Shown in pieces: positions 8,638 to 13,428 of a DNA stretch of 58,640 bases (positions are counted from its first letter, which is position 1; every line of letters starts with the position of its first letter). The notes beneath the pieces are model-generated. The model was given only the letters and a program-made list of their open reading frames with translations. It did no database searches and had not been told where the DNA came from. Made by a program: the position numbers and the translations under genes. Source of the DNA: a virus. The DNA is taken from positions 1-58,640 of the IMG/VR virus record IMGVR_UViG_3300009182_000072, one strand, 5' to 3'.

Positions 8638-9291
8638 ATGAAAACTTTTATTGATCATGATTTCCCTAAACTCCAACGTGACACTTCCCCCGATGGCACA
8701 CGAGTCTATAAAACACCGACGGGTCGAGCCTATCCAAGCGTCACTACCGTTACAGGACTCCACACAGCAAAAGGAATCGCCGAGTGGAGACGAAGAGTCG
8801 GAAATGAAGAAGCTAACAGAATCAGTTCCCGAGCAAGTGCCAGAGGTACAAGAATCCACTCTCTCTGCGAAGCATATCTCCGCAATGAACGATGTGAACC
8901 TGATATCTTCGATAAAGAGTTATTTGGAAGCATATCACAGTGGCTCGAAGACATAGATAATATACATGCCATTGAAGAACCACTGTACTCAGATTATCTT
9001 GAAGTAGCTGGTACTGTTGATTGCATTGCTGAGTTTCAGGGTAAGTTATCAGTTATCGATTTTAAGACTTCTAGTAAGCCAAAAGATCGTGATGATATCT
9101 ACAACTACTTTATGCAGTGTGCTGCATATTCAGTGGCATTTGAAGAGAGAACAGGTATTCCTATTGGGAGACTTGTGATCATAATGGCAGTTGATAATGA
9201 TGATCCAAGATTGTTCATTGAAAAACGTGACAACTGGATTGGTGGATTTCGTAAACTAAGATTAGATTATAAAAATTTAAAAGGAGTATAA
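8638..9291 (+). CDS. PD-(D/E)XK nuclease, MGME1/RecB-like exonuclease
   Basis: 217 residues. The nuclease core is visible as GTVDCIAEF (D128) followed by LSVIDFKTSS (D141, K143), the RecB-type D...DxK signature, with a QCAAYSVAFEE helix behind it that carries the usual QxxxY. The N-terminal GTRVYKTPTGRAYPSVTTV and ARGTRIHSLCEAYL match the phage and mitochondrial MGME1-type single-strand exonucleases, where the H-x3-E helix completes the site. It probably trims single-stranded or flap DNA ends in replication or recombination. It starts directly after the endolysin stop. Confidence 0.85.
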   Translation: MKTFIDHDFPKLQRDTSPDGTRVYKTPTGRAYPSVTTVTGLHTAKGIAEWRRRVGNEEANRISSRASARGTRIHSLCEAYLRNERCEPDIFDKELFGSISQWLEDIDNIHAIEEPLYSDYLEVAGTVDCIAEFQGKLSVIDFKTSSKPKDRDDIYNYFMQCAAYSVAFEERTGIPIGRLVIIMAVDNDDPRLFIEKRDNWIGGFRKLRLDYKNLKGV

Positions 9292-10153: not shown

Positions 10154-10474
10154 ATGATTCCATTATTTGACTATGGTTCTATTAAAGAAGAACATAAATT
10201 AGCTGCAGAAGAATGCGCTAAGATGATTGAACCACATCAATCATATGTAGCTAATCAGATTCGTGAAAGATTTAAGATTGTGGAGCCAGAAAGAATGGAT
10301 CCCGAGAGTAGCGAATTCTATAGAACAGCAAAAGAATTTGGTTTGCATGTAGCAATGCAAGGTCATATGGTTGGACCAGATGGGGTTCAAATACCAATGG
10401 TTATAGTTTGTGCTGAACTACCAAAGTTTGATGAATTTTTGCAGTACTACAAAAAGTTGAACTGCAAAGATTAA
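10154..10474 (+). CDS. hypothetical protein
   Basis: 106 residues beginning MIPLFDYGSIKEEHKLAAEE. Mostly helical and charged in the first 75 residues, with a beta-like end (VQIPMVIVCAELPKFDEFL). A GAAAGG at 10141-10146 serves as ribosome-binding site. It lies between the Ala-rich gene and the tmRNA, and its last codons overlap the tmRNA promoter at 10457. It looks like a conserved small phage protein; no function assigned. Confidence 0.6.
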   Translation: MIPLFDYGSIKEEHKLAAEECAKMIEPHQSYVANQIRERFKIVEPERMDPESSEFYRTAKEFGLHVAMQGHMVGPDGVQIPMVIVCAELPKFDEFLQYYKKLNCKD

Positions 10475-10485
10475 TACGGTATAAT
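10457..10485 (+). promoter_or_regulatory. sigma70-type promoter of the tmRNA
   Basis: TTGAAC (10457-10462), a 17-nt spacer and TATAAT (10480-10485). The predicted start is about 10492, which fits the 5' end of the acceptor piece of the tmRNA. The -35 box lies inside the end of the preceding gene. Confidence 0.8.
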
Positions 10486-10560
10486 TATGTGTAAGTGAAT
10501 GGTTGTTTGAAATTAACCGAAAGGTGTTGCGGACGGGAGTTCGATTCTCCCCACCTCCAC

Positions 10561-10630
10561 CAGAAACATACTAGGTCGTTGAGTTAAAAAGTCGCATGTG
10601 ATGCGCTCAGATTAAAATAGTATGTTTCTG
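10561..10630 (+). repeat. 13-bp inverted repeat closing the tmRNA intervening sequence
   Basis: CAGAAACATACTA (10561-10573) and TAGTATGTTTCTG (10618-10630) are perfect reverse complements. In the precursor RNA this helix stacks almost directly on the acceptor stem (10552-10558 with 10633-10639) and should hold the two pieces together until processing. The enclosed loop can fold further: TGAG (10581-10584) with CTCA (10606-10609), and CGCAT with ATGCG around GTG. The repeat begins within the encoded CCA. Confidence 0.85.
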
Positions 10631-10767
10631 ATGGGGGTGACCAGGTTTCGACGTGGCAATAAGTACGAAGATGGACAACTCGAGACAGATACTCGTTAAA
10701 AGTAAACAAAAGTAAACGCAAACGACTCACAGTTCGCATTGGCAGCCTAAACGCTGACTAGGGTTTC

Positions 10768-10813
10768 GGTAGGTTTCCTCGTAACAGAATAACCTACCAC
10801 TTTTAACTTTTAA
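10768..10813 (+). terminator. possible 3' end hairpin of the tmRNA coding piece
   Basis: GGTAGGTT (10768-10775) pairs perfectly with AACCTACC (10791-10798) around a 15-nt loop, followed by ACTTTTAACTTTT. It may be a tmRNA structural helix, the processed 3' boundary of the coding piece, and a weak intrinsic terminator at once. The large loop and interrupted T run make strong termination uncertain, so read-through into the porin-like gene at 10826 is plausible. Confidence 0.45.
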
Positions 10814-10825
10814 GGGAATTTACAG

Positions 10826-11269
10826 ATGAAGAAAATGATTTTTGTAGCTGCATTAATGGCAGCAGTTTCTGCGCAAGCAGTTGAGTTGGGTATCAATGCA
10901 AGTCGTGATAATGGTAACTCCAATCGTGATGGCGGTGGCTTGACCATCTCTGAAAGTTTCGGTACAACTGGTATCGTAGCTGGTTGGGATCGTTACTCAA
11001 GTGGTACTGAATTGAACAAGTATAGCTTGATGGGCACTTATGATGTTGCTAATTTTGGTAAAGCAGTTGTAGCTGTTAAAGCTGGTGTTGCTTATGTAGA
11101 CCAAAAGAATTCAACTGATGGTTATGCTGGTTTGGTTGGTGTAGGCGTATCATACCCAGTTGCTAAGAAAGTTTCTTTAACTGCAGATTATCGTTATCAA
11201 GCAGGTCAAAGTCGCATTTCTAGTCTAGATGGTGGTGCTGTTTCTGCTGGCTTGAAGTACTCGTTCTAA
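10826..11269 (+). CDS. small outer-membrane beta-barrel (porin-like) protein
   Basis: 147 residues with a clear Sec signal peptide: MKKMIFVAALMAAVSAQA, cleaved after residue 18. The mature part alternates polar and hydrophobic residues in about eight strands with Gly/Asp turns (SLMGTYDVANFGKAVVAVKA, VSLTADYRYQAG) and ends in LKYSF. A C-terminal Phe in an alternating strand is the BAM recognition signal of Gram-negative outer-membrane proteins. The size fits an 8-stranded OmpA/OmpX-type barrel. It follows the tmRNA with AAGGGAA at 10812-10818 as ribosome-binding site. Phage-borne barrels can alter receptor availability or permeability; that role is inference. It looks like a host-derived cargo gene. 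Confidence 0.8.
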   Translation: MKKMIFVAALMAAVSAQAVELGINASRDNGNSNRDGGGLTISESFGTTGIVAGWDRYSSGTELNKYSLMGTYDVANFGKAVVAVKAGVAYVDQKNSTDGYAGLVGVGVSYPVAKKVSLTADYRYQAGQSRISSLDGGAVSAGLKYSF

Positions 11270-12356: not shown

Positions 12357-12953
12357 ATGCGAGTGTATTTATACATACTCATACTCATATCAACAATTGT
12401 TGCAATTACATTTGCTGCAACTGCATATCCACAAAATTTTAAATTATTTGACATCCGATACTCTGAACTAACAAAAGAAGCGAAACAACAAGTAGCATGT
12501 TTAGCTGAGAACATCTATTATGAAGCTGGTTATGAACCAGAAGATGGAAAACTAGCTGTTGCTCTAGTCACATTGAATAGGACACAAAGTCCAAAATTCC
12601 CAAACAATATTTGTGGTGTTGTAAAACAGAAAACCAACTCCACTTGCCAGTTTACATGGTTCTGTGAACCAATGAGGTTAAATAAGAATAACATCGCTTA
12701 TGAAAAAGCCATGGAAGTTGCTTTGTTTGCTTATGCAAACTATGAAGTTATAGATGATATAACAAAGGGTGCTCTATATTATCATGCTGACTACGTTAAC
12801 CCAAGATGGAAACTTCAACGAACAACCATAATCGGTCGACATATTTTTTATAAAGAAGGTGGTATACACAATGATGGAAAAACTAAACCTGTCTCTAAAA
12901 GAGGACAGTTCGAGGCACTCGTTCTTTCTCTTGATGGAGGAAGTAACTCTTAA
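12357..12953 (+). CDS. SleB/CwlJ-type cell wall hydrolase
   Basis: 198 residues. An N-terminal hydrophobic segment (VYLYILILISTIVAITFAAT) is a signal peptide or anchor. The hydrolase_2 domain follows: ENIYYEAGYEPEDGKLAVA, with the catalytic glutamate probably E56, then VTLNR, the GVVKQK block, CQFTWFC and LYYHADYVNPRW near the end. Family members are lytic transglycosylases acting on spore cortex or peptidoglycan. With a signal sequence this could reach the periplasm without the holin. AAGGAGATACT is a strong ribosome-binding site. The last 83 nt overlap the start of the ClpP gene in another frame. Confidence 0.85.
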   Translation: MRVYLYILILISTIVAITFAATAYPQNFKLFDIRYSELTKEAKQQVACLAENIYYEAGYEPEDGKLAVALVTLNRTQSPKFPNNICGVVKQKTNSTCQFTWFCEPMRLNKNNIAYEKAMEVALFAYANYEVIDDITKGALYYHADYVNPRWKLQRTTIIGRHIFYKEGGIHNDGKTKPVSKRGQFEALVLSLDGGSNS

Positions 12954-13428
12954 TACTTGTAAGCAAGCAGTTGAGTGGATTCTTGAAGCAAATTTTGCTG
13001 AAGAAACTCCAGAGATGCTTAATTTAATTATTACTAGTCCAGGTGGCGATCTTAATGCTGCGTTTGCATTAGTTGATGTAATGCGTGGCTCTTCAATACC
13101 AATACGAACAGTTGGTCTTGGACAGGTTGCTTCTGCTGGTCTGATGATTTTTATTGCAGGTACAAATGGTCAGCGAATTCTTACACCGAATACTTCTATT
13201 CTATCACACCAATATTCATGGGGTGCGTTTGGTAAAGAGCATGAACTGTTTGCGCAGATTAAAGAATTTGATCTAACTACAAAACGTATGGTATCTCACT
13301 ATAAGAAATGTACTGGTCTTAAAGAAGAACAGATTCGTGAATATCTACTTCCTCCACAAGACATCTGGCTCAGTTCTGCTGAAGCCAAAAAATTAGGATT
13401 ATGCGATGACGTTAAAGATCTTAAGTAA
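12871..13428 (+). CDS. clpP: ClpP-like serine protease
   Basis: 185 residues of the ClpP fold. The catalytic triad is intact: S88 in GLGQVASAGLM, H113 in ILSHQYSWG and D164 in PPQDIWLSSAEAKKLGL. SPGGDLNAAFALVDVM is the substrate-groove and oxyanion-loop block. It lacks most of the N-terminal processing region of bacterial ClpP and starts directly with a beta strand segment. The start at 12871 follows AAGAAGGTGG; GTG at 12859 is an alternative. It should form a barrel with its own copies or with host ClpP and depend on host ClpX or ClpA. With the phage tmRNA 2 kb upstream, it may degrade tagged peptides; a capsid-processing role is the main alternative. Confidence 0.88.
   Translation: MMEKLNLSLKEDSSRHSFFLLMEEVTLNTCKQAVEWILEANFAEETPEMLNLIITSPGGDLNAAFALVDVMRGSSIPIRTVGLGQVASAGLMIFIAGTNGQRILTPNTSILSHQYSWGAFGKEHELFAQIKEFDLTTKRMVSHYKKCTGLKEEQIREYLLPPQDIWLSSAEAKKLGLCDDVKDLK

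Follow-up and report, generated by a model that had tools for sequence, protein, structure and literature searches.

The virus record IMGVR_UViG_3300009182_000072 from IMG/VR, of which positions 1 to 58,640 (58,640 nucleotides, the window) were analyzed here, represents a fragment of a T4-like myovirus and carries a phage-encoded, permuted and structurally complete gene for transfer-messenger RNA (tmRNA, gene ssrA). RNAs of this kind rescue stalled ribosomes and label incomplete proteins for degradation. The gene begins with the 3' (acceptor) part, which is separated by an intervening segment from the 5' (mRNA-like) part further downstream. An earlier note, based on inspection of the sequence, had proposed a permuted two-piece tmRNA with the tag ANDSQFALAA and recommended searches with ARAGORN and, by cmsearch, with the Rfam models. 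In complete agreement with this proposal, ARAGORN reported a permuted tmRNA (tmRNA*) with the same tag as the one RNA gene in the window (10470-10841), while Rfam searches yielded significant matches to RF04321 (tmRNA_permuted, 10501-10750, 126.8 bits vs. a cut-off of 47) and to RF01850 (beta_tmRNA, 10449-10805, 121.3 bits vs. a cut-off of 84), the latter being the best specific Rfam model. The outcome that the earlier note had named as refuting, a lack of significant matches to tmRNA covariance models, thus did not occur. We consider it likely, with a probability of roughly 0.86, that the gene is functional and works as proposed further below.

Structure and covariation of the permuted tmRNA

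The following parts of the gene were recognized:

10492-10562, plus strand: acceptor (3') piece, about 62-71 nucleotides (nt), ending in the encoded CCA, 5' end presumed (Rfam alignment, sequence)
10501-10506, plus strand: 5' strand of P2, GGUUGU, pairing with ACAACU at 10675-10680 across the pieces (sequence)
10535-10551, plus strand: T-arm, stem GGGAG/CUCCC, loop UUCGAUU (Rfam alignment; the stem covaries)
10552-10558, plus strand: 3' strand of the acceptor stem, CACCUCC, with U70 at 10556, followed by the discriminator A10559 (sequence, Rfam)
10560-10562, plus strand: encoded CCA (sequence)
10563-10632, plus strand: intervening segment predicted to be cut from the precursor, 70 nt, starting directly after CCA
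10633-10639, plus strand: 5' strand of the acceptor stem, GGGGGUG, with G3 at 10635 (sequence, Rfam)
10633-10805, plus strand: mRNA-like (5') piece, about 170-180 nt, 3' end presumed (Rfam beta_tmRNA match to 10805)
10718-10750, plus strand: tag frame ANDSQFALAA (codons 10718-10747) and UAA stop (10748-10750) (ARAGORN, sequence)
10768-10798, plus strand: 3' hairpin GGUAGGUU/AACCUACC of the mRNA-like piece (covariation among relatives)

The positions that the earlier note had assigned to the T-arm, the acceptor strand, CCA and the 5' portion hold upon reading of the sequence, and the same is true for the intact tag with its stop, the seven-base-pair (bp) acceptor stem and the P2-like helix across the pieces. 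All seven pairs (7/7) of the acceptor stem are formed between the two pieces, including the G3-U70 pair (10635-10556). The tag combines a stop codon with a hydrophobic, protease-recognized end, and a conserved sequence, GGUUUCGAC, stands between GGGGGUG and the tag frame. An identical gene is present on a second contig, L012, that agrees with the window to 99.99% across 13.9 kilobases (kb). That the locus resembles a tmRNA merely by chance, or stems from bacterial DNA misjoined to a phage contig, is extremely improbable given model scores far above the cut-off, the identical gene in a second contig and the same neighborhood across many phage contigs.

The window RNA folds better than its shuffled versions (energy z = -3.8, 0/100 shuffles). 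To assess covariation, 11 diverse phage copies were aligned and a structure of 37 pairs joining both pieces was considered. In this structure, 97.5% of the cells are paired and double compensatory changes occur at 22 of the 37 pairs; 57 double-changed cells were observed vs. 15.4 in shuffles (0/500 shuffles), and sliding of the partners destroys the signal. These values have to be read with the caveats that the 37-pair structure was derived by RNAalifold from the same alignment on which covariation was counted and that the 11 copies were found by a pattern fixing the acceptor stem, such that the stem cannot vary among them. A fairer test of the acceptor stem was therefore based on 82 permuted tmRNAs (phage and a few bacterial) found mainly via a neighboring protein. 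Ten different acceptor stems occur among them, all with 7/7 pairs; compensatory changes affect pairs 4, 5 and 6, and G3-U70 is kept in 82/82; the script used takes the best-pairing placement, which favors pairing though not a G-U at position 3. Among the 11 phage copies, P2a covaries with double changes at 5/7 pairs, while for P2 the true partners outscore all 200 mismatched re-pairings, albeit by a small margin only. The 3' hairpin shows double changes at all five counted pairs among relatives. In both consensus and single-sequence folds, a 13-bp outer helix of the intervening segment (10561-10573 with 10618-10630) extends the acceptor stem, and the last two CCA bases sit within it in the precursor. 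As this covarying helix extends the stem and buries the CCA end, folding of the precursor is suggested to guide processing.

Phage setting, descent and proposed working

With regard to its gene content, the window encodes homologues of T4 gp59 and gp32, a baseplate hub with tail lysozyme, baseplate wedge subunits, a DNA end protector, tail tube, terminase small subunit, PhoH and endolysins. The phage lies far from cultured phages, given that even the best matches to its end-protector protein among the phage records listed do not exceed about 45% identity. DNA comparison retrieved no cultured near relative of the tmRNA, and for the surrounding 6 kb only short cyanophage matches, in the exonuclease and ClpP genes, were obtained. 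The slot occupied by the tmRNA is marked by the following gene:

8638-9291, plus strand: exonuclease gene marking the conserved slot upstream of the tmRNA (PHROG 298, 234 bits; synteny)

Relatives were gathered by sequence patterns and protein anchors, and the tmRNA follows the T4-like exonuclease gene in many distant relatives, whose exonuclease is 39-79% identical to that of the window. In a set of 80 contigs selected by this exonuclease alone (the exonuclease-anchored set), ARAGORN detected a permuted tmRNA in 36/80 contigs; as ARAGORN misses some copies, its counts are lower bounds, and covariance models recovered permuted tmRNAs, some of alpha-type, in 6/20 re-tested ARAGORN-negative loci, resulting in at least 42/80 contigs, about half or more of this wide group. 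Tags in relatives are intact and mostly end in LAA. The permuted tmRNAs of L015 and L017 feature a 27-residue tag, AEDADTFEFGALSFTGNTVGGEVAVAA, far above the usual 10 residues. A group of eight phage tmRNAs (L073, L074, L076, L077, L099, L205, L211, L212) exhibits unusual T-loops, UGCAAAU and UGCGAAU, and GGCAGUG-like T-loops were also read by eye in this group; several of its members also have an altered D-loop sequence, CUCAGUAUUCGAC, which suggests an alternative contact between the D- and T-loops.

Phylogenetic analysis of tmRNA sequences rests on 243 columns, and the resulting tree contains many weak forks. The window copy falls into a clade whose 11 members, among them cyanophage BUCT-ZZ01, all stem from phages (support 100/100), while six bacterial-type beta sequences group together elsewhere in the tree; the grouping with bacterial beta-type tmRNAs expected for a member of the betaproteobacterial lineage was thus not recovered. 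Because the window copy resides in a phage-only clade apart from the bacterial beta-type tmRNAs, sequence comparison argues that it is not a recent host capture. The locus could instead be a relic of a captured host ssrA gene without present function, left for example when a prophage was excised imprecisely from an ssrA attachment site, and it is true that ssrA fragments do occur in prophages (PMC9004378) and that odd tags are seen in permuted copies from some Oxalobacteraceae genomes. Still, we consider a relic very improbable in view of the intact tag, stem and CCA, the compensatory changes in many relatives, the phage-only clade and the fact that no integrase was seen among the annotated window proteins, which are T4-like. 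The permuted tmRNA-like matches in Oxalobacteraceae (L020, L021, L023, L024) have odd or degraded tags, are accompanied by weaker matches elsewhere in the genome and are possibly borne by mobile elements. A different arrangement was noted in Dechloromonas (L022/L025; G004:C1:1035817-1036400 and G007:C7:82002-82585), where two permuted-tmRNA matches per bacterial genome lie on opposite strands about 155 bases apart.

The consensus promoter that the earlier note had placed ahead of the gene is present:

10457-10485, plus strand: sigma-70-like promoter TTGAAC-17-TATAAT (10/12 consensus bases)

Of 69 related permuted tmRNAs, 48% are closely preceded by a site of this kind with at least 10/12 consensus bases, vs. 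2.4% of random stretches from the same loci. From this promoter, host RNA polymerase would transcribe one precursor comprising the acceptor piece, the intervening hairpin and the mRNA-like piece. By analogy with bacterial two-piece tmRNA, host enzymes would then excise the intervening segment, with RNase P cutting at 10632/10633 and 3' trimming to CCA. The two pieces would remain paired via the acceptor stem, P2a and P2, and the two-piece RNA would be charged by alanyl-tRNA synthetase through G3-U70. Neither the window nor 14 related phage records (15 in total) yielded a match to SmpB, while control genomes were positive; since the phage records searched lack SmpB, the phage tmRNA presumably has to use the host protein, which would bring the charged RNA to stalled ribosomes. 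There, ANDSQFALAA would be added to the product, marking it for ClpXP/ClpAP-type proteolysis. The most likely benefit would be that ribosomes remain available in the infected cell, in which the decay of mRNA produces many nonstop messages. A tmRNA that competes with host trans-translation or serves as its decoy, thereby blocking or redirecting it instead of lending support, would need neither a tag frame nor a stop, yet both are intact and kept in relatives, such that we regard this option as quite improbable.

Several observations weigh against a functional gene of the kind proposed. An intrinsic terminator was looked for on the tmRNA strand and none was found, and the next gene starts about 20 nt past the modelled tmRNA end. 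Furthermore, presence of the tmRNA is patchy, with nearly half of the wider T4-like set having no detected copy on their fragment, and the tmRNA is therefore not essential to this wider group. As a side observation, the reading frame directly downstream of the tmRNA (10826-11269) specifies a protein of 147 amino acids with a signal-peptide-like start and weak matches to beta-barrel Pfam families (OmpA_membrane, porin), an unusual cargo for a phage.

A neighboring ClpP gene and small reading frames in relatives

Downstream of the tmRNA, at a distance of 2.1 kb and on the same strand, the window contains a gene for a protease:

12859-13428, plus strand: phage ClpP-family serine protease (Pfam PF00574, 106 bits; match to ClpP in PDB)

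Its catalytic triad (S92/H117/D168) is intact, and the triad motifs are present in 80/80 relatives. A permuted tmRNA precedes the ClpP gene in all 41 loci with at least 3.5 kb of upstream sequence (40 by ARAGORN, and L087 by covariance model), the distance being 1.06-2.96 kb over all ARAGORN-positive ClpP loci. A role of this ClpP as prohead protease was considered and is disfavored: as a gp21-type prohead protease (Peptidase_S77) is separately encoded in 5/8 longer relative contigs tested, ClpP of the type found in the window is probably not the prohead protease. Cyanophage BUCT-ZZ01, whose ClpP is 53% identical, also has both ClpP and tmRNA, though far apart.

Taken together, the intact triad, the conserved neighborhood, the separate prohead protease and the joint occurrence in BUCT-ZZ01 would fit a tmRNA that feeds the phage protease and thereby forms a tag-and-degrade branch run by the phage. 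A functional pair is nevertheless not supported, as the association is perfect in the close lineage but failed both an unbiased control and a check outside the family. Among the exonuclease-anchored contigs, no association between ClpP and tmRNA is seen (Fisher p = 1.0), and after a partial re-test of negatives with covariance models a tmRNA was found in 5/7 contigs with ClpP vs. at least 37/73 without. Among ten ClpP-bearing phages of other groups, none (0/10) has a permuted tmRNA, and no one-piece tmRNA scored over the cut-off. In addition, the tags keep a generic LAA end readable by host ClpX. As no association is evident in either set, we ascribe the pairing to joint inheritance within a single lineage, with functional cooperation as a possibility; a tag-and-degrade branch under phage control appears unlikely. 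A literature search on phage ClpP plus tmRNA returned nothing relevant.

In relatives, though not in the window, small reading frames exactly fill the intervening segment of the tmRNA. They start 11-12 nt past the CC of CCA, behind a ribosome-binding-like site, and their UGA stop codon lies at the border of the 5' piece. A membrane-type protein of 41 amino acids is encoded in three loci and an unrelated protein of 52 amino acids in two further loci, with the following tmRNA spans according to ARAGORN:

L106, 6477-6915: tmRNA with the 41-amino-acid reading frame
L105, 6192-6632: tmRNA with the 41-amino-acid reading frame
L108, 6453-6914: tmRNA with the 41-amino-acid reading frame
L132, 6171-6662: tmRNA with the 52-amino-acid reading frame
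L136, 1177-1668: tmRNA with the 52-amino-acid reading frame

Substitutions by codon position amount to 9/1/17 between L105 and L106 and to 9/0/10 or 7/2/12 for the 52-amino-acid protein, a pattern that looks typical of coding sequence. When the alignment of the 41-amino-acid protein served as query, relatives were found in 25 contigs (L193-L217), in most of which they are located within a permuted tmRNA or immediately ahead of it; they constitute a small membrane protein family with the signature ..YWIYxxxTYDWSNF..DQEQAKKDLF, matched at about position 1501 in most loci. The literature searched on reading frames inside tmRNA intervening segments contained nothing relevant. An extended scheme, in which phage ClpP docks on host ClpX/ClpA and takes over or accelerates the degradation of tmRNA-tagged products of stalled ribosomes, thus recycling amino acids in the infected cell, while the precursor of the relatives doubles as messenger through the segment that is simply discarded in bacteria, is likewise doubtful; if true, a single transcript of these relatives would yield both a two-piece tmRNA and the messenger for a small protein.

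Comparison with known two-piece tmRNAs

The earlier note was unsure whether a permuted phage tmRNA had been described before. In fact, such genes are already known, from Methylophilales phage Melnitz, for which a two-piece tmRNA was reported in 2022 together with 53 two-piece tmRNA genes detected by ARAGORN in 18,146 phage genomes, mostly aquatic (PMC9004378), and by annotation in some isolates such as Stenotrophomonas phage Marzo. The tmRNA database paper, in which RF04321 was built, counted 79 phage tmRNA sequences (PMC11915505). Besides Marzo, we found permuted tmRNAs in Pseudomonas phage SM1, Alcaligenes phage QDWS595, Xanthomonas phages XacN1 and Rb1 and Synechococcus phage BUCT-ZZ01, several of these copies, including that of BUCT-ZZ01, not being annotated as tmRNA in the stretches read. 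The copies from isolates resemble that of the window in exceeding the RF04321 cut-off, in their intact tags and, where measured, in G3-U70; they differ in that they belong to other phage groups and hosts, and only BUCT-ZZ01 joins the clade of the window. Its beta-type permuted tmRNA (L175, 1953-2249, corresponding to 116952-117248 of the BUCT-ZZ01 record; 111.9 bits) is partly covered by an annotated hypothetical protein, and the host is a cyanobacterium. In the jumbo phage XacN1, a GOLLD RNA (L067, 4342-4755, 227 bits) lies near the permuted tmRNA.

According to established knowledge, a one-piece tmRNA is expected for Pseudomonas and Stenotrophomonas. Since phages of these genera carry permuted copies, the form of a phage tmRNA need not mirror that of the host. 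The authors of the Melnitz study took the mismatch between phage and host tmRNA as a host switch (PMC9004378), to which a tmRNA lineage maintained by phages constitutes an alternative; this is relevant to the question of whether the host history of a phage can be read from its tmRNA type, as in the Melnitz study. The split tmRNA, with its own lineage, is an established constituent of a large and for the most part uncultured T4-like group and not an occasional loan from the host, and the benefit of ribosome rescue for the phage becomes testable in the cultured carriers BUCT-ZZ01, Marzo and SM1.

Mycobacteriophage DS6A, mentioned in PMC11915505, also encodes a tmRNA relative; unlike the window gene, that of DS6A lacks a tag reading frame and inhibits host tmRNA. 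The betaproteobacterial two-piece tmRNA (RF01850; Sharkady and Williams, 2004, as cited in PMC9004378) shares with the window copy the gene order, P2a/P2, T-arm, acceptor stem and 3' hairpin. On the other hand, the window copy scores 121 bits with this model vs. about 250-298 bits for the best bacterial-type copies, belongs to a separate clade and has no GC-rich 3' terminator hairpin, and intervening segments range from 27 to 201 nt in phages vs. 25 to 50 nt in the bacterial copies seen. Melnitz, a myophage of aquatic bacteria, agrees with the window phage in its permuted ssrA gene with intact tag, its T4-like genes and its presumed need for host factors. The Melnitz copy, however, clusters among alphaproteobacterial tmRNAs and is associated with a glutamine riboswitch, whereas that of the window, in which no Rfam riboswitch match was found, is of beta-type and resides beside an exonuclease gene. 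The window gene thus adds to the known two-piece tmRNAs of phages a beta-type phage lineage that is distinct from the alpha-type of Melnitz.
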